From positions 930,001 through 994,000 of the forward strand of contig NZ_CP142422.1 in the NCBI RefSeq assembly GCF_035974275.1: a stretch of DNA of 64,000 nt, given 5' to 3'. The notes under the pieces are model-generated. The model saw only the letters and a program-made list of their open reading frames with translations. It searched no databases and had not been told where the DNA came from. The position numbers and the translations under genes were made by a program. Positions 13,035 through 53,677 of this stretch are shown one piece after another (position 1 is the stretch's first letter; every line of letters starts with the position of its first letter). This DNA is from Chryseobacterium sp. MYb264. GTDB lineage: Bacteria; Bacteroidota; Bacteroidia; Flavobacteriales; Weeksellaceae.

Positions 13035-13145
13035 ATGTTGGATCAGTTTCAAAACTTGAGGGAGAAATTGTTAGATGTATTTTTTGCCACGAATGCACGA
13101 ATTTTTTATTTCCCACGGATCGCACAGATTTTCAGATGCTGTTGG
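13035..13145 (+). repeat. Dispersed repeat with CCACGAATGCACGAAT and CCCACGGATCGCACAGATT
   Basis: This stretch, including AGAAATTGTTAGATGTATTT and TTTTGCCACGAATGCACGAA, is repeated almost identically at 15190-15260 and in inverted orientation at 42700-42776. Its second half is a variant of the arms that flank the GxxExxY gene. Confidence 0.75.
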
Positions 13146-13251
13146 TATTTTTTTGCTTATCTTTTCCGGTCTTTTATCAATAGATTAGTTTTTAGAAATT
13201 TGATATATCTCTTCATACTGATTTTTAAATATTTGATAGAAATTTTGCATT

Positions 13252-15189: not shown

Positions 15190-15630
15190 CATGGATCAGT
15201 GTCAAAACTTGGGGAGAAATTGTTTAGATGTATTTTTTGCCACGAATGCACGAATTTTTTATTTCCTACAGATCGCAGATAGTGCTATTTCTGTTGGTTT
15301 TTCGCAAAGTCGCAAAGATATTTTTTAATATTTTATGTTTTTAAGGCGCAAGGATTTTAGCAAAGATAAAATTGGAGGCTGCATATTATCGCCACGAATG
15401 CACGAATTTTTTATTTCCTACAGATCGCAGATAGTGCTGTTTCTGTTGGTTTTTCGCAAAGGCGCAAAGATATTTTTTAATACTTTATGTTTTTAAGGCG
15501 CAAGGATTTTATCAAAGATAAAATTGAGGGCTGCATATTATCGCCACGAATGCACAAATACTTTTTATTTCCCACAGAATACACGGATTTTCACAGATAC
15601 TGCTGTTAATTTTTGTGGCTTCAACTTTAT
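15190..15630 (+). repeat. Tandem 152-bp repeat block of CCACGAATG/CGCAAAGG units
   Basis: Two copies of a 152-bp unit lie at 15239-15390 and 15391-15542, followed by a partial third. Each begins GCCACGAATGCACGAATTTT and contains CGCAAAGxCGCAAAGATATT and AAGGCGCAAGGATTTTA. The block ends with TTTCCCACAGAATACACGG, a relative of the GxxExxY cassette arm. It is non-coding; the units themselves contain internal near-duplications of 7-9 bases. Confidence 0.85.
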
Positions 15631-15846
15631 GGTCTTTTGTAATTAGAACGGCTTGATGAGCCTTAAAGCGGGAGTTGCCAAAAAACTTGGCGGTGCTTCG
15701 TGTTCAATATGTAAAGTGTAAGGAAAAGAATCTGCATCAATTGCAAAATCTGCGAGAGCAAAAAATTTCACCTTATATTATCTAAGCTTTTTTGCCTAGT
15801 CCCCAACTTTTGTACTTGATCTATTTTCATTATGAAAGACTTCACT
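15631..15846 (+). repeat. Spacer with AGAACGG repeat fragment
   Basis: AGAACGGCTTGATGAGCCTTAAAGCG here is the same family as AGAACGGTTTGGTGAGACTT near 53190 and its inverted copy near 42470. The rest of the spacer shows nothing convincing. Confidence 0.5.
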
Positions 15847-16435: not shown

Positions 16436-17584
16436 TTATACTGATTTTATGATTATTTTTCCTTTTTTGGATTGTGTAAAAATAAGGTAATTTTCACCAC
16501 CATCTTTTAATCCGTATTTTTTCTTGATTTCTTCAGGTTTTAAAGGATAATTTTTTGAAATAATATTAAACTGACTTTTCTTTTTAATCTGCTTAGCGTC
16601 AATAACTTCAATTTCCAAAATTCTTCCGGGAAAGTCTTTTATTTTTTCATTGGAAGTGTAAATATGAGTATTCGGATGAAGTTTTTTCAAGCCAAATTTT
16701 TCTGAAATTAAATTGAAAACTCCAGCTTTTAGCATTGAATTATTAGGAATATAGATGAAATTTTCAGGTTCATCGTATGTTGCATGAACATTTTCCTCTT
16801 CTCCAAACTTATAGGTAAAAGTAGATTCATCACTTTCCAGATTCACGCAATTGCAGGTAATTTCTCCTGTATTTTCCTTTGACAGAAAGACAACAACTTC
16901 TTTTACATCGTTCTTCAACGCAATAATATCAATCCTGAAAATGCTTGGTAAAACAGACACCAAATATTTTAAATCAATTAAAGGCGACAGTTTTATCACT
17001 ACTTCATTAGAAATCGACAATAATTTTTCCTGAATTTCAAGAATATTGGGTGACAAATCTTCCAATAGAAAGACCTTATTTTTATTATTATCTCTTCGCG
17101 CCGGATCGAGATAAATTACATCAAAAGCTTCTTTATTTTGATTCAGAAAATTTTCCAGTTTTTGATTAATAAACTTTGCTTTTTTTTCTAAAACCGTCCA
17201 ATTATGCTCAACAATTTCTAACAGTTCAGGATTTTGTTCAACTAAAGTTATTTCGCTGAAATTTTTGGATAAATAATAGGCATCAATTCCAAAACCGCTG
17301 GTTAAATCAATGAATTTTGTTCCTTCTAAAAGTTCTGATTTATATAAAGCTGTTTTTTCGGAGGAAGATTGTTCTAAACTTAATTGTGGCGGGAAAATTA
17401 TACCCTCTTTTAATAAAAACGGAAATTTCTTTTGTGCAACCTGTCTTCCCTTAATCTGCTGAACAATTTCCTGCATAGAAACTTCAGGAAACGGGGATTT
17501 TTTTAACAATAATGAGTGCAAGTCTGTGTTTAGATTTGCATTGATGTATTTTTGGACTTCTTGATTTAATATTGTTTTTCCCAC
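16436..17584 (-). CDS. Class I SAM-dependent methyltransferase with THUMP-like C-terminus
   Basis: A 382-residue protein. The SAM site is FIDLTSGFGIDAYYLSK followed by ITLVEQNPEL; the catalytic-loop motif is IYLDPARRD. The C-terminal 75 residues (PNTHIYTSNEKIKDFPGRIL, then a KKYGLKDGGENY segment) match the THUMP-like domain found behind such methyltransferases in Bacteroidota. Methylation of RNA is plausible but unproven. The only available start is a GTG inside the left inverted repeat of the GxxExxY cassette, with a TAA two codons further up; homologous alignment begins around LNQEVQKYINANLN, a few codons in. Confidence 0.8.
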   Translation of the reverse strand: MGKTILNQEVQKYINANLNTDLHSLLLKKSPFPEVSMQEIVQQIKGRQVAQKKFPFLLKEGIIFPPQLSLEQSSSEKTALYKSELLEGTKFIDLTSGFGIDAYYLSKNFSEITLVEQNPELLEIVEHNWTVLEKKAKFINQKLENFLNQNKEAFDVIYLDPARRDNNKNKVFLLEDLSPNILEIQEKLLSISNEVVIKLSPLIDLKYLVSVLPSIFRIDIIALKNDVKEVVVFLSKENTGEITCNCVNLESDESTFTYKFGEEENVHATYDEPENFIYIPNNSMLKAGVFNLISEKFGLKKLHPNTHIYTSNEKIKDFPGRILEIEVIDAKQIKKKSQFNIISKNYPLKPEEIKKKYGLKDGGENYLIFTQSKKGKIIIKSV

Positions 17585-17615
17585 GGATTACACAGATTTT
17601 CACAGATGATTATGG
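17580..17615 (+). repeat. Left 36-bp inverted repeat of the GxxExxY cassette
   Basis: TCCCACGGATTACACAGATT with TTCACAGATGATTATG matches the reverse complement of 18067-18102 at 35 of 36 positions. It overlaps the start of the methyltransferase gene. Degenerate copies without a gene occur at about 13100, 15570, 42520 and 53390. Confidence 0.9.
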
Positions 17616-17637
17616 ATATCACTCTGCTGAGATTTTA

Positions 17638-18021
17638 TTAATCTAAATTTCCATTTATTTTTCGGAAGATATTTTTAGCAATATAATCTGTATTGAAATT
17701 GACTAATATTCCCAACTTCATATCAGATAGTTTAAGATAAGTCAGCAATTGTTTATGATGAACTTCGCTAATTTCTTGGATTGATTTAATTTCTATAATT
17801 ACCTTGTTTTCAACAATAATGTCTGCAACAAAACTTGAATCAATAATAATATCTCTAAATTTTATAGACATTGGAACTTGATTCCGGACTTCTAATCCAT
17901 GACTTTCCAGTTCAAGCATTAAAACTTTTTCATAAACTTTCTCTAATAAACCAGGTCCTAATTCATTATAAATAGAAAATATCGATTTTCTGATATAAAA
18001 ACTTATCTCATTTTCTTTCAC
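17638..18021 (-). CDS. GxxExxY protein (PD-(D/E)xK nuclease-fold family)
   Basis: A 127-residue protein with the family motif G24-L-L-E27-K-V-Y30 in ELGPGLLEKVYEKVL. The candidate nuclease triad follows as Asp67 (VADIIVEN) and Glu77-x-Lys79 (VIIEIKSI), then VHHKQLLTYLKLSD and GILVNFN. The family is widespread and often multicopy; its biochemical role has not been settled as far as I know. The gene lies inside a 523-bp unit bounded by 36-bp inverted repeats and separates the methyltransferase from mutA. The catalytic residues look intact. Confidence 0.9.
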   Translation of the reverse strand: MKENEISFYIRKSIFSIYNELGPGLLEKVYEKVLMLELESHGLEVRNQVPMSIKFRDIIIDSSFVADIIVENKVIIEIKSIQEISEVHHKQLLTYLKLSDMKLGILVNFNTDYIAKNIFRKINGNLD

Positions 18022-18066
18022 CGTAATGTGTTTTTTGTGTTTATAAAATTTTCAAAGAATAATATT

Positions 18067-18102
18067 CATAATCATTTGTGAAAATCTGTGTAATCCGTGG
18101 GA
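18067..18102 (-). repeat. Right 36-bp inverted repeat of the GxxExxY cassette
   Basis: CATAATCATTTGTGAAAATC with TGTGTAATCCGTGGGA is the inverted partner of 17580-17615 with one mismatch. It ends 10 bases before the stop of mutA, on the downstream side of that gene. Confidence 0.9.
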
Positions 18103-18111
18103 AGCAAAAAG

Positions 18112-19263
18112 TTATTCAAACATTTCCGCCCAACGAACCGGTTTAATTTCCTTTTCGTTGTATAATTCTTCTACGGACTTTTTAACGTCTAATTTCGGAT
18201 ATAAATTCACTCCGATCAGCTTTATTTTGCCTTCTTCAACCCATTTTTGCTCTTCAACAGCATGATCGTAGATTTTCTTCTGGATAATTCCTTGCTTTAA
18301 AAGTTCAAGGTAACCTCCTGCTTCTTCAATTTCTACGAACAAAGCCCAAGATTTTTCTGCAATCTGCTGCGTAATATCTTCTATATAATAACTTCCGTTT
18401 GAAGCATCTTCAAAGACATTAATAATACTTTCATAAGCCAAAACAATCTGCTGTTTGAAAGAAATTTCTTCCGAATTATCTGTAGATCTGTCAACTAAAT
18501 AATTATTACTGAAAACTGCATCTGCGCCGCCAATCATAGCAGAGGCCAGCTCTAAAGTCGAACGGATCAGGTTGTTTTCATTATCAGCAACCGCTTTATT
18601 TCGCAACGAAGTTTCTGCAAAAATGTATGGAATTTCGTCTAAGTTATATTCTTTTGAGAGTTGATTGAAAACCATTTTAAATGCTCTCAGTTTTGCCATT
18701 TCGAAGAAATAATTTCCTCCGACAGCAATTCTGAAAATCAGTTTATATAAAATTTCCGAGCCATATACTTCAACCAGTTCTTTTGTTTTTGCCAAAGCAA
18801 TTCCTAATTGCTGGTAAATGGCTGCTCCGGCATTTTGATGAAGAGAAATATCTACGCAAACGTTTCTTCTAAACTGTTTTGCCAATAATTCTTTCACTAA
18901 CTGATCATTAATCGTAGCTTCTTTTTCCTCAAAAACATCAATTAACGAAAAATACTGATCTTCTTCTTTCGGACTGATGTGTCCCGCCAGATCAATATTA
19001 TTCACGAAAATAGTTTTCTGTTCAAGGTTTTCTACATTCTGATCCAAAATAAAGGCAAATACATCCTCTTCTAAACTTTCGTGATATCTTGACACCAAAT
19101 GCGTGCTTTCTTCGATTTTTGGAAGGTTTACCAAAGACTTTTCTACCGAATCATAAAAAGGTTTCACTACAATTCCTTCCAGATTTTCTTTTGAAAGAAT
19201 TGAGTAAATATCATCAGTTTTAAGTTGTTTTTTAACTAGATCTTCCCAGGCTGTATTTGACAT
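18112..19263 (-). CDS. mutA: Methylmalonyl-CoA mutase small subunit
   Basis: The protein has 383 residues from the ATG giving MSNTAWEDLVKKQLKTDD; a frame start at 19293 adds ten residues without family match. It is recognisable by VDISLHQNAGAAIYQQLGIA and LFRIAVGGNYFFEMAKLRAF, the substrate-domain barrel of the mutase. There is no cobalamin-binding DxHxxG domain, as expected for a non-catalytic partner, although it is short for the subunit. The large subunit is not in the window. Its downstream spacer holds the GxxExxY cassette. Confidence 0.85.
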   Translation of the reverse strand: MSNTAWEDLVKKQLKTDDIYSILSKENLEGIVVKPFYDSVEKSLVNLPKIEESTHLVSRYHESLEEDVFAFILDQNVENLEQKTIFVNNIDLAGHISPKEEDQYFSLIDVFEEKEATINDQLVKELLAKQFRRNVCVDISLHQNAGAAIYQQLGIALAKTKELVEVYGSEILYKLIFRIAVGGNYFFEMAKLRAFKMVFNQLSKEYNLDEIPYIFAETSLRNKAVADNENNLIRSTLELASAMIGGADAVFSNNYLVDRSTDNSEEISFKQQIVLAYESIINVFEDASNGSYYIEDITQQIAEKSWALFVEIEEAGGYLELLKQGIIQKKIYDHAVEEQKWVEEGKIKLIGVNLYPKLDVKKSVEELYNEKEIKPVRWAEMFE

Positions 19264-19279
19264 TGATTTTTTTTTGGAG

Positions 19280-19353
19280 TTGTGAATTGTCAATCCGCTT
19301 TGTTTGTCAATTTAAAAATTCACTTGCGAAGCAAAATTCACTATTGACAATTG
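19280..19353. repeat. Dispersed repeat containing CACTTGCGAAGC, copy 2
   Basis: AAAATTCACTTGCGAAGCAAAA is the inverted match of 9541-9562. The copy is bracketed by TGAATTGTCAAT and ATTGACAATTGA. It fills the mutA-ftsB spacer. Confidence 0.6.
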
Positions 19354-42362: not shown

Positions 42363-42500
42363 TTCGCAACGGCGTTTTACTCAGCAAATGATAGCCCTGC
42401 TGTATGCTTTTATTATTTGAACACAAAGTTCTCAAAAGTTATTTACTACTACTCGTTTTAAGGCTCACCAAGCCGTTCTATTGATAAAAGATCGAGAAGG
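42363..42500 (+). repeat. Long dispersed repeat, copy inverted to 53172-53310
   Basis: From TTCGCAACGGCGTT through CAGCAAATGATAGCCCTGCT and TATTATTTGAACACAAAGT to ACTACTACTCGTTTTAAGGC and CCGTTCTA, it matches the reverse complement of 53183-53309 with only a handful of differences. Similarity seems to extend into the RHS-associated fragment beyond (ATAAAAGATCG against ATAAAAGACCG). Confidence 0.85.
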
Positions 42501-42778
42501 TTAAGCAATAAAAATCAACAGCAGAATCTGTGAAAATCCGTGTATTCTGTGGGAAATAAAAAGTATTTTTGCATTCGTGGCGATAATATGCAGCCCTCAA
42601 TTTTATCTTTGATAAAATCCTTGCGCCTTAAAAACATAAAGTATTAAAAATATCTTTGCGGCTTCGCAAAAAACCAACAGAGGAAGCAATGGTTCGATCT
42701 GTGCCAAATAAAATATTGGTGCATTCGTGGCAAAAGGAAAATATCTAAACAATTTCTCTCCAAATTGATCATTTTTAG
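42501..42778 (-). repeat. Inverted set of CCACGAATG/cassette-arm repeats
   Basis: Read on the minus strand it carries CCACGAATGCACCAATAT, AAGGCGCAAGGATTTTATC and TTTCCCACAGAATACACGGA, the same blocks as 15190-15600. It is a scrambled, inverted copy ending next to the Flavo-1-like element. Confidence 0.75.
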
Positions 42779-45239: not shown

Positions 45240-46286
45240 ATGGCACAGAAGCAATTAACACGAAAAGAAAAAAGAATTAACAAAACGATTACTTTACTGG
45301 CGTGGATCCTTATTATCAGTGGGATTACAGGGATGGTGAGCTTTTATCTTTTTTCGAGAAAAAACGTGACCACCAACGATGCGCAGATCGAACAATATAT
45401 CACCCCTGTTTCAAGCAAAGTTTCGGGTTTCATTAAAATCATTAAGTTTAACGAAAATCAGTTTGTTCATAAAGGGGATACTTTGATTGTGATTGATAAT
45501 CGTGAATTCGTTAATCAGGTGAAAATGGCAGAAGCTAATCTTCATGCCAATTCAGAAAATATCAGCACCATTGAAAGCGGTGTGAGCACGAAAGCAAGTG
45601 ACACGAAAATCATTGACGCTAAAATAGCCTCGGCAAAGATCGATATCTGGAGAACGGAACAGGATTTTAAGAGATACAGAAACCTCGTAGACGAAGATGC
45701 GGCAACCGAGCAGCAATTTGAAAATGTAAAAGCTTCTTATGAACAGGCAAAAGCGAACCTTTTAGCACTTGACCAGCAAAAAAATGCCGTGAGAGCCAGT
45801 GTTAATGAGCAGGAAACGAAAGTGGCTCCCGTAAAAAGTCAGATTCAGCAAAGCTCTGCCAGTCTGAATAATGCTAAACTTTTCCTTTCTTACACCGTGG
45901 TTACTGCACCTTACGATGGATGGGTGGGTAAAAAGACCATTCAGGAAGGGCAATTAATCAAAGAAGGTCAGGCTTTGGTGCAAATTGTAAGCAAAGAAAA
46001 ATGGATCATCGCGAATTATAAAGAAACGCAGTTGGGACAGATTGACCAAAATAAAGAAGTTATCATTACTGCGGATGCCTATCCTGATGTTGAATTCAAA
46101 GGAAAAATACTTTCGGTGTCTCCGGCTTCAGGTTCGCAGTTTTCATTGGTAAAACCGGATAATGCAACAGGAAATTTCGTAAAAATCGAACAACGATTTC
46201 CAGTGAAAATTATTCTCGATAAAAATCAGAATAACGAAAAACTACTTTCCGGAATGAATGTTCTGGTGAGTGCGAAGAAGATATAG
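45240..46286 (+). CDS. HlyD/EmrA-type membrane fusion protein
   Basis: A 348-residue periplasmic adaptor with an N-terminal membrane anchor (TLLAWILIISGITGMVSFYL), lipoyl halves (TTNDAQIEQYITPVSSKVSG and VVTAPYDGWVGKKTIQEGQL) and a coiled-coil hairpin between. EmrA-like features fit an MFS partner. It begins 5 bases after tolC. Confidence 0.92.
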   Translation: MAQKQLTRKEKRINKTITLLAWILIISGITGMVSFYLFSRKNVTTNDAQIEQYITPVSSKVSGFIKIIKFNENQFVHKGDTLIVIDNREFVNQVKMAEANLHANSENISTIESGVSTKASDTKIIDAKIASAKIDIWRTEQDFKRYRNLVDEDAATEQQFENVKASYEQAKANLLALDQQKNAVRASVNEQETKVAPVKSQIQQSSASLNNAKLFLSYTVVTAPYDGWVGKKTIQEGQLIKEGQALVQIVSKEKWIIANYKETQLGQIDQNKEVIITADAYPDVEFKGKILSVSPASGSQFSLVKPDNATGNFVKIEQRFPVKIILDKNQNNEKLLSGMNVLVSAKKI

Positions 46287-46294
46287 AGTTTGAG

Positions 46295-46390
46295 GGTTTT
46301 AGGGTTTTAGAGTTTTAGAGTTTTAGAGTTTTAGAGTTTTAGAGTTTTAGAGTTTTAGAGTTTTAGAGTTTTAGAGTTTTAGAGTTTTAG
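46295..46390 (+). repeat. Octamer tandem repeat, 12 copies of AGTTTTAG
   Basis: Twelve perfect-phase 8-base units (two GGTTTTAG then ten AGTTTTAG) occupy exactly 96 bases after hlyD. Units this uniform are prone to length change by slippage. Confidence 0.92.
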
Positions 46391-46651
46391 CAAAAATAAT
46401 AGATACGACAATCTTTCACATGATCTCATCTTCAAATTTTAAAATTAAATTATTTTTTTAGCGAAAGGGCAAAACGCAAATTGCAAATCTGCGAATTTTT
46501 TCTTGAGCATATTTGTTATTTACCTTTTACTTTTTTTTACACCCTGCTTTTTGTCTTTTCGCTTTTTTTATTCATAATAATTTAGTTTAAACTTAAAAAA
46601 ATGATGTCCGAAAATTCCTGTTTAATAATGAATAGTTGAGGGAGAGTACAC
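46391..46651. other. AT-rich spacer between adaptor and MFS gene
   Basis: No gene. Pyrimidine-rich stretches around 46500-46570 and nothing else convincing; the region separates the two halves of the efflux system. Confidence 0.45.
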
Positions 46652-52691: not shown

Positions 52692-53190
52692 TTAGTTTTT
52701 ATAGTTGTATTTGAATTCTTTTAATAATTTACCGGTCTGGTTCTGTTCTCTGATTTCCATTAAACGGTTCGCAGAATCATATACATAGACTTCACGGACT
52801 CCCGATGGAGGGGTGATGCTGCGGACACCAATTAAAGGATCGTAGGTGTACGTCGTGATTTGAGTGTCAATTAACCTTAAACTTTTACGAAGTGTATCTA
52901 GTTTGCTGATTAAATCTGCTTCTGTAATTTCTGGCTGAAGATTATAGGCTGATGGATTGGCATCTTTCTCAGAAGCCAAAACAATATCTGAAACCAAAGA
53001 CGGAACCACTGTCATGAGCTGAGTATAAGTAATCCCATTAATTTTAGCTACGGGCTGAGTACTGTTGTACCCCCAGATAATAGATACCGGAATCCCATCT
53101 TTTGTCGTGTACTGCTGTAAATTACCCTTAGAATCCTTTAGATGATATCGTTGATTTTCTATGTTTAACCTTTGCGGTCTTTTATAGGTA
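52692..53190 (-). pseudogene. C-terminal fragment of an RHS-partner protein
   Basis: An open frame runs from the stop at 52692 upstream through EYKNYNYKFEKLLKG-type residues: YVYDSANRLMEIREQNQTGK near the end, then TTYTYDPLIGVRSITPPSGV, DGIPVSIIWGYNSTQPVAKI and TYKRPQRLNIENQRYHLKDS. It is the typical end of the large protein encoded upstream of DUF6443 RHS genes in Chryseobacterium. The frame enters the dispersed repeat at about 53185 and no start is found; an ATG at 53015 would give a 107-residue remnant. The 5' end has been lost. Confidence 0.72.
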
Positions 53191-53310
53191 GAACGGTTTG
53201 GTGAGACTTAAAACGAGTAGTAGTAAATAACCTTTGAGGACTTTGTGTTCAAATAATAAAAGCATACAGCAGGGCTATCATTTGCTGAGTAGAACGCCGT
53301 TGCGAACGGA
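53172..53310 (-). repeat. Long dispersed repeat, copy inverted to 42363-42500
   Basis: The same blocks as at 42363 in opposite orientation: AGAACGGTTTGGTGAGACTT, ACGAGTAGTAGTAAATAACC, ACAGCAGGGCTATCATTTGC. It abuts and truncates the RHS-partner fragment. Confidence 0.85.
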
Positions 53311-53677
53311 AAATCAGCAGTATCATTTAAAAATATCGTGGCGAACTTGGTGTTAGAAATAATGATTTGCCACGAATGCACGAATATTTTACATCCCACA
53401 TATTACTCAGATTTCGCAGATTTAGAACCCATTAGTAGAAAACAGAAACTTACGTGTGCTTCTATGTAGCTTGACTTTAAACGTTAGTAACTAAAGTGTT
53501 AAAAAACTTTTGTTACTTTTGACTACGTCGAAATATCATTCATCGAATGAAAGGAGCTAATCTTCTAACATTATATCAAGTAAAAAATCTGGCCTCCGTT
53601 AGGAAGCATCGTTCATAAATAAACTTTCATTCTCAATTTTAGGCAGAAAATTTGCTATAATTCCTGAAATTTGCTTT
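53311..53677. other. Spacer with CCACGAATG and TCGAAATAT repeat fragments
   Basis: TTTGCCACGAATGCACGAAT at 53368 and CCCACATATTACTCAGATTT after it are degenerate cassette-arm units. TTTGACTACGTCGAAATATC near 53518 repeats TTTGACTCCGTCGAAATATT near 20730. No gene is seen. Confidence 0.55.

Follow-up and report, generated by a model that had tools for sequence, protein, structure and literature searches.

A GxxExxY nuclease-fold gene of Chryseobacterium and its inverted word-array arms suggest a so far unrecognised gene–repeat system

The GxxExxY locus and its two arms

The window analysed here is a 64,000-nt stretch of the genome of Chryseobacterium sp. MYb264 (contig NZ_CP142422.1, positions 930,001 to 994,000). 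It holds a short gene for a GxxExxY protein, framed by two inverted repeats, here called arms, and set between two neighbours that border a conserved site:

16436–17584, (-) strand: neighbour, SAM-dependent methyltransferase-like gene (PG_1098_Fer, Thump_like), one border of the conserved site
17578–17614, (+) strand: downstream arm, an inverted copy of the upstream arm
17638–18021, (-) strand: GxxExxY gene of clade A, 127 aa, GTG start
18067–18103, (-) strand: type-A upstream arm, lying 5' of the gene and reading inwards CCACGGAT-TA-CACAGAT-TTT-CACAAAT
18112–19293, (-) strand: neighbour, methylmalonyl-CoA mutase small subunit-like gene (mutA), the other border

The first-pass annotation had described this gene as framed by inverted repeats matching at 35 of 36 positions, and the framing is confirmed, with 36 identities over 37. 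A repeat search also pairs the arms as an inverted repeat (75 nt at 80%), and local alignment of one flank of the gene against the other scores 81, whereas none of 300 shuffles exceeds 34. The outer end of the downstream arm overlaps the GTG listed as the start of the neighbouring open reading frame (16436–17584).

In profile searches the window protein matches TIGR04256 (8.3e-39, 132.6 bits against a cut-off of 35) and PF13366 (PDDEXK_3; 5.3e-39, 133.7 bits against a cut-off of 22), and these are its only profile matches. The predicted model has a pLDDT of 94.5 and its structural relatives are PD-(D/E)xK proteins; the core fold (in the model) and the D...ExK residues (in the sequence) are both present, which places the protein among them. 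As first noted, the gene keeps the candidate PD-(D/E)xK residues; E27, D67, E77, K79 and Q91 are present, and the first four of these are found in 176 of 176 GxxExxY rows. With clade medians of dN/dS between 0.035 and 0.095, the GxxExxY family is under purifying selection and its PD-(D/E)xK active site is invariant.

The window genome (G000; 5.23 Mb, one contig) carries six GxxExxY genes, each of a different clade. The other five paralogues are 30–50% identical to the window protein, and G000 has no near-identical copies at several sites of the kind seen for a classical insertion sequence. In the literature searched, which excludes subscription journals and preprints, we found neither a description of the function of GxxExxY proteins nor a report of their association with word-array arms; GxxExxY is named in passing in the available text of PMC8934634 and mentioned in that of PMC12085832.

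Arms around other GxxExxY genes

A TIGR04256 match is present in 56 of 60 genus genomes, in one to nine copies each. The genus set, drawn from the genus search and from the paralogues of G000 itself, comprises 96 rows and 95 distinct genes (L003 and L031 are the same). Thirty rows are the best matches per genome, which mostly form a clade of their own (clade R), and 60 are the next among the matches listed, so low-scoring copies are under-represented. Arms were called where the flanks held an inverted pair with an alignment score of at least 30. By this measure, arms are found at 48 of the 96 genus rows against 2 of 384 offset pairs; in two of the 48 (L064 and L098) the arms face the opposite way. 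The cross-phylum set consisted of the best 80 of 509 loci in named genomes, and arms are found at 50 of the 78 testable loci compared with 3 of 405 offset pairs, with positive loci in Bacteroidota, Cyanobacteriota, Acidobacteriota, Chloroflexota, Verrucomicrobiota, Pseudomonadota and Ignavibacteriota.

When the genus and the other phyla are pooled, arms frame 96 of 170 testable GxxExxY genes and 7 of 333 control genes. The arms are therefore neither absent from most GxxExxY genes of the genus nor equally frequent beside other genes, the two outcomes that the first-pass annotation had set against its proposal. Arm framing of GxxExxY genes is general and extends beyond the window locus. It does not extend to clade R, where arms are found at 0 of 26 rows (25 distinct genes; L003 and others among L027–L053); without this clade, the pooled count is 96 of 144. 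Clade R occupies one conserved site in the genus with its active site intact, and is possibly domesticated.

GxxExxY genes are rare on plasmids, with matches in 6 of 72,556 records at the sensitivity of the search used. Four of the six copies score at least 30, including modest scores of 36, 33 and 45, and add Gemmatimonadota (L395) to the list of phyla. In L395, a Gemmatirosa plasmid, a complete inverted arm pair lies on each side of the GxxExxY gene, and a Sphingomonas copy in this set lies between fabD and fabG.

Arm architecture and protein clade

The arms differ in sequence and share, as judged by eye, a common plan, in which a T/A-rich lead is combined with repeats of a 7-bp word, frequently four arranged as two pairs. 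Words include CACAGAT, CGCAAAG, CGCAATG, CACGGAG and CACAAAAG. For autocorrelation we combined one arm from each genus clade with the arms of the cross-phylum loci, 47 in all; peaks lie at lags of 9–10, 12, 21–23 and 32, beside lags of 1–2, with lag 22 reaching a z of 10.0 against shuffles that keep single-base content only. Six single arms of different types show no strong hairpins (z from 2.11 to -1.73) and no palindromic REP core. As a positive control, Y1_Tnp genes of the genus have their own, different inverted arms at 20 of 30 loci (score at least 30), many with palindromic cores by eye, and of two such arms folded (z of -1.08 and -3.68) one is clearly a hairpin.

To compare words with proteins, arms were typed by eye and placed on a tree of the 96 genus rows. 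Over the 42 rows that carry one of six types, the word type changes five times, the minimum for six types; the remaining rows, 6 with some other type and 48 without a type, are not part of this count. Nearly every clade occupies one orthologous site in the genus (the exceptions are clade G, with two sites, and L006). With orthologous clades of this kind, the match seen in the genus could by itself reflect shared descent. Among locus pairs with unrelated flanks (1009 of 1081), protein identity and arm similarity are correlated with a rho of 0.323, a value reached in 1 of 2000 permutations, run without a control for base composition. Word type changes with protein clade.

Dispersed gene-less arms

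The window was scanned for type-A arms with the pattern CCACRGATTNCACRGATTTNCACRGAT, for which the reversed-pattern control gave 0 matches. Together with two type-D cores, the dispersed arms are:

13113–13139, (+) strand: degenerate type-A arm, 5 mismatches; its mosaic cluster also holds a CACGAATGCACGAAT repeat at 13086–13106
15300–15319, (+) strand: type-D arm core, CGCAAAGTCGCAAAG, 2 mismatches
15452–15471, (+) strand: second type-D arm core, 1 mismatch, 152 bp on from the first
15572–15598, (+) strand: type-A arm, 1 mismatch, in the mosaic cluster 15239–15658
42526–42552, (-) strand: type-A arm, 1 mismatch, in the mosaic cluster 42363–42731
53396–53422, (+) strand: very degenerate type-A-like arm, 7 mismatches and very weak, in the mosaic cluster 53175–53422

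The first-pass annotation had placed copies of the window arm at about 13100, 15570, 42520 and 53390. All four are present, the last very weakly, but they are parts of mosaic clusters with other arm types rather than simple lone arms. The dispersed copies are intergenic if open reading frames of at least 120 aa are counted; frames of 101 and 108 aa overlap the copy at 13.1 kb. A clade-D gene is found elsewhere in G000 (L004). By eye, the clusters (13086–13195, 15239–15658, 42363–42731 and 53175–53422) contain several arm types in a recurring order, and they share a tail like CGGTCTTTTATCAATAGAACGG.

Across G000, 64 type-A sites are found at up to 3 mismatches and none with the control, in keeping with the swarm of gene-less arms first proposed. 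These sites are strongly strand-skewed (52 forward and 12 reverse). Over 60 genus genomes, type-A sites number 0–81 per genome and are present in 57, with controls of 0. With the two arms of the gene itself removed, the median is 22 in the 22 genomes with a clade-A gene against 10 in the 37 without (p = 5e-4, uncorrected for phylogeny); with phylogeny taken into account, 29 genomes give only 7 independent pairs, too few for any statistical power, of which 2.7 go the same way and 0.8 the other (p = 0.625). Type-A sites also occur in three of the four genomes without a TIGR04256 match (17 in G019, 18 in G040, 18 in G043 and 0 in G029). The arms in these three are relics or have another driver, and count against the REPIN/RAYT-like reading set out below.

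Three words from other loci were searched in one set of 15 genomes, with reversed controls of 0. The Nostoc word occurs only in two Nostoc genomes (22 and 11 sites), the Dyadobacter word only in two genomes (9 and 2) and the CACGGAG word only in one (9); each is thus absent from 13–14 of the 15 and confined to genomes whose GxxExxY gene bears it. After subtraction of two apparent own-arm sites per genome, 20 and 9, 7 and 0, and 7 sites remain, one of the two Dyadobacter genomes having its own arm pair only.

Gene-less arms also occur as inverted pairs, both in the genus (L172 and L173) and among the word matches in the 15 genomes, beside solo arms and direct tandem clusters. At genus loci, type A (n = 58 sites) gives 21 inward, 6 direct, 0 outward and 31 unpaired, and type E (n = 22) gives 9, 1, 0 and 12, both inflated by the picking of loci for a pair or a gene. 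The same inflation applies to type D (n = 13; 6 inward, 3 direct, 1 outward, 3 none) and type B (n = 19; 0, 1, 1 and 17), and for types B, C and D the reversed controls match as well. Among 112 loci picked regardless of arms there are one type-A and two type-E pairs, all inward.

History of the sites

At the window site, between mutA and the methyltransferase gene, the GxxExxY gene is present in 22 of 59 resolved genomes (the 60 except G039) and absent in 37; at least 3 of the 22 copies carry a stop or frameshift. We read by eye the seven shortest of the 37 gene-less sites. In one (L150) both arms survive together with the 3' end of the gene; the other six have an arm-like remnant beside the methyltransferase gene. 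These remnants overlap a possible GTG start of the methyltransferase gene, and a few of the bases may be preserved by that gene in its own right.

The two clade G sites were each viewed in 30 genomes, and the upstream border was found in 15 (site 1) and 21 (site 2). The gene is present in some, internally deleted in others (L368, L374 and L378) and replaced by gene-less pairs in L375 and L377 (site 1) and L340 (site 2). Site 1 of G008 is clean of gene and arms, a state in which gain and loss are indistinguishable. The search for empty sites advised in the first-pass annotation thus yielded a clean site for clade G, but no clean pre-insertion site among the seven read at the window locus. Some gene-less pairs are internal-deletion derivatives, as seen for L150, L368, L374 and L378 and for these loci only.

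The place of the L172 pair, readable at 26 of 30 loci, gives presence or absence rather than direction. By eye, the pair is clearly present in L305, L311, L312, L313, L316 and L317, and absent from the orthologous place in several other species (L321, L324, L329, L333 and L334), where 2–4 nt lie between a stop codon and a conserved motif. No target-site duplication was seen by eye at the gene-less window sites or at the L172 place, where the flanks are much diverged. Tests for concerted evolution of the two arms gave p values of 0.011 (A), 0.007 (D), 0.14 (B), 0.73 (C) and 0.95 (E), which we set aside because the segments were trimmed by within-locus alignment.

To the first-pass annotation the cassette had looked like an autonomous unit. 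This is not supported: with the exceptions of clade G and L006 each clade keeps to one orthologous site, from which some genomes have lost it, the paralogues are only 30–50% identical, plasmid copies are rare, and all seven gene-less sites read have remnants. A recently mobile autonomous transposon is accordingly rejected for the genus.

Another inverted pair, roughly CTTCGRCTCCGCTCAGNATGACA, occurs at the gene-less mutA site in L135, L144, L153 and L155–L157; no pair of this type was found within 1.5 kb of 30 Y1_Tnp loci.

TIGR02436 genes with similar arms

The three highest-scoring of the seven arm-bearing control genes (scores of at least 36) are TIGR02436 four-helix-bundle genes. Among the loci examined, TIGR02436 homologues have arms in 5 of 8 cases; three of these are the discovery cases, and the five include the weak sequence matches L065 and L073. 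On plasmids, where 36 records have a TIGR02436 match, arms are found at 6 of 6 copies examined. The genes lying between inverted word arrays, with words such as GTTCAGT and GCAGGGGA, include:

L218, 736–1107: TIGR02436 gene
L226, 930–1259: TIGR02436 gene
L232, 740–1117: TIGR02436 gene
L401–L406: TIGR02436 genes

Either arms of this word-array kind arose by convergence in two protein families, or such arrays are recognised by a factor common to both. The TIGR02436 arms are a complication and may be the larger finding. Two of the plasmid records label the gene as S23 ribosomal protein, and the available text of PMC4990558 uses the term selfish element for a 23S rRNA intervening sequence that carries an S23 gene.

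Comparison with known repeat systems

In the available accounts (PMC8049555, PMC3116915), REPIN/RAYT systems have resident, vertically inherited and diverse single genes that are rare or unseen on plasmids; inverted arms lie by the gene, gene-less pairs and solo arms are dispersed, and repeats also occur without the gene. The GxxExxY genes are likewise resident and vertical, with one copy per type (except for the two sites of clade G, and L006), and rare on plasmids. Their arms lie on both sides of the gene and are of a type that follows the protein clade, clade R excepted (0 of 26), while gene-less inverted doublets and solo arms are dispersed in genomes with GxxExxY and arms also occur in genomes without it. 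A REP/RAYT-like arrangement, as first suggested, is supported over coincidence (96 of 170 against 7 of 333). Unlike the RAYTs, which are HUH Y1 enzymes, GxxExxY proteins have a PD-(D/E)xK nuclease fold, and their arms are non-palindromic arrays of 7-bp words, whereas the Y1_Tnp arms of the genus are REP-like. Because a Y1 enzyme and a palindromic REP were both looked for and not found, we do not file the GxxExxY system under REPIN/RAYT.

MITEs are internal-deletion derivatives of DNA transposons. The inverted pairs without a gene resemble them, as do the intermediates in which parts of the gene are left. Unlike MITEs, they have no multicopy, near-identical autonomous element in G000, and no target-site duplication was noticed.

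The TAACTGA heptamer repeats of Beggiatoaceae, also reported from Cyanobacteria and some Bacteroidetes, resemble GxxExxY arms as direct heptamer repeats that are mostly intergenic. In the available part of that account (PMC4679880) each set consists of a single unvarying word and lies in most cases upstream of a start codon, with a single inverted repeat reported and, unlike the GxxExxY arms, no framing of a gene.

Interpretation and alternatives

Most GxxExxY clades have inverted arms of iterated 7-bp words. Gene and arms are co-inherited, the words are specific to the clade and the dispersal to the genome, deletion derivatives occur, and the active site is constrained. We consider that this is probably a REPIN/RAYT-like system of two parts, with the window locus as its source gene, resident and inherited vertically. 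Here, GxxExxY multimers would bind the cognate word array on double-stranded DNA, with two word pairs per arm and words 9–10 bp apart, about one helical turn. The protein would then pair the two inverted arms and cut or nick there. Now and then gene-less arm pairs might be excised and copied to another place, with the gene-bearing copy remaining where it is, and paralogues may diverge through a change of the recognised word. Counting against this reading are the armless clade R with its kept active site, the similar arms of the unrelated TIGR02436 family, the Dyadobacter genome with its own arm pair only, the powerless phylogeny-aware comparison of gene presence and arm number, and the lack of a target-site duplication visible by eye and of a shown recent jump.

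The GxxExxY gene could instead be a tenant, with another enzyme of the host or of an element reading the word arrays and moving or maintaining whatever lies between them. The TIGR02436 genes, which are not nucleases by family and are framed by inverted word arrays too (5 of 8, and 6 of 6 plasmid copies), are consistent with this, as is the persistence of arms in three genomes where no GxxExxY gene was detected, but word type follows GxxExxY clade, and on balance we think such tenancy unlikely. Y1_Tnp enzymes in particular are judged an unlikely driver because they have arms of their own (20 of 30) and A–E arms lie within 1.5 kb of only 1 of 30 of their loci. That the protein is a homing-like selfish nuclease, cutting gene-less arm-like sites into which repair copies the cassette, would suit the predicted PD-(D/E)xK fold, the coexistence in the genus of gene-bearing and gene-less states of the same site and the presence of clade G at two sites; it is improbable, as a clean target is less common among the gene-less sites read than remnants of a deletion or of arms, and no gene has occupied many arm sites in a genome, the six paralogues of G000 each being of a different clade. 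Least probable, and in our judgement very unlikely, is that the arms are operators or terminators of the gene and the dispersed copies other regulated promoters or mRNA-stabilising repeats. The arms do lie close to the gene ends, and the dispersed window copies are intergenic if frames below 120 aa are ignored; against this, the downstream arm repeats the upstream one in inverted orientation, inverted pairs without a gene occur, as do mosaic clusters, one and the same intergenic place may hold the L172 pair or lack it, and the six single arms lack strong hairpins.

Returning to the REPIN/RAYT-like reading, a general class can be sketched, which we advance tentatively and with more doubt than confidence: a resident GxxExxY or TIGR02436 protein, inverted arrays of a protein-specific 7–8 bp word, and gene-less arrays that are kept. 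Such a class might be the source of much unexplained short interspersed intergenic repeat content in Bacteroidota, Cyanobacteria and other phyla, with a modular, word-by-word recognition of DNA by GxxExxY. Genes of the GxxExxY family are widespread, and the link between clade and word array gives them a testable function, the recognition of cognate arms. If true, a class of intergenic repeats in several phyla would be explained, and a second, independent REPIN-like lifestyle would rest on a nuclease fold, a fold for which we know of no such lifestyle. The natural variety of words with conserved spacing would also be a ready set for learning a protein–DNA recognition code.

As a separate observation, a tandem array in which no framed gene was identified lies at 46263–46406 of the window; its 8-bp unit is AGTTTTAG, and it is word-array-like in appearance.
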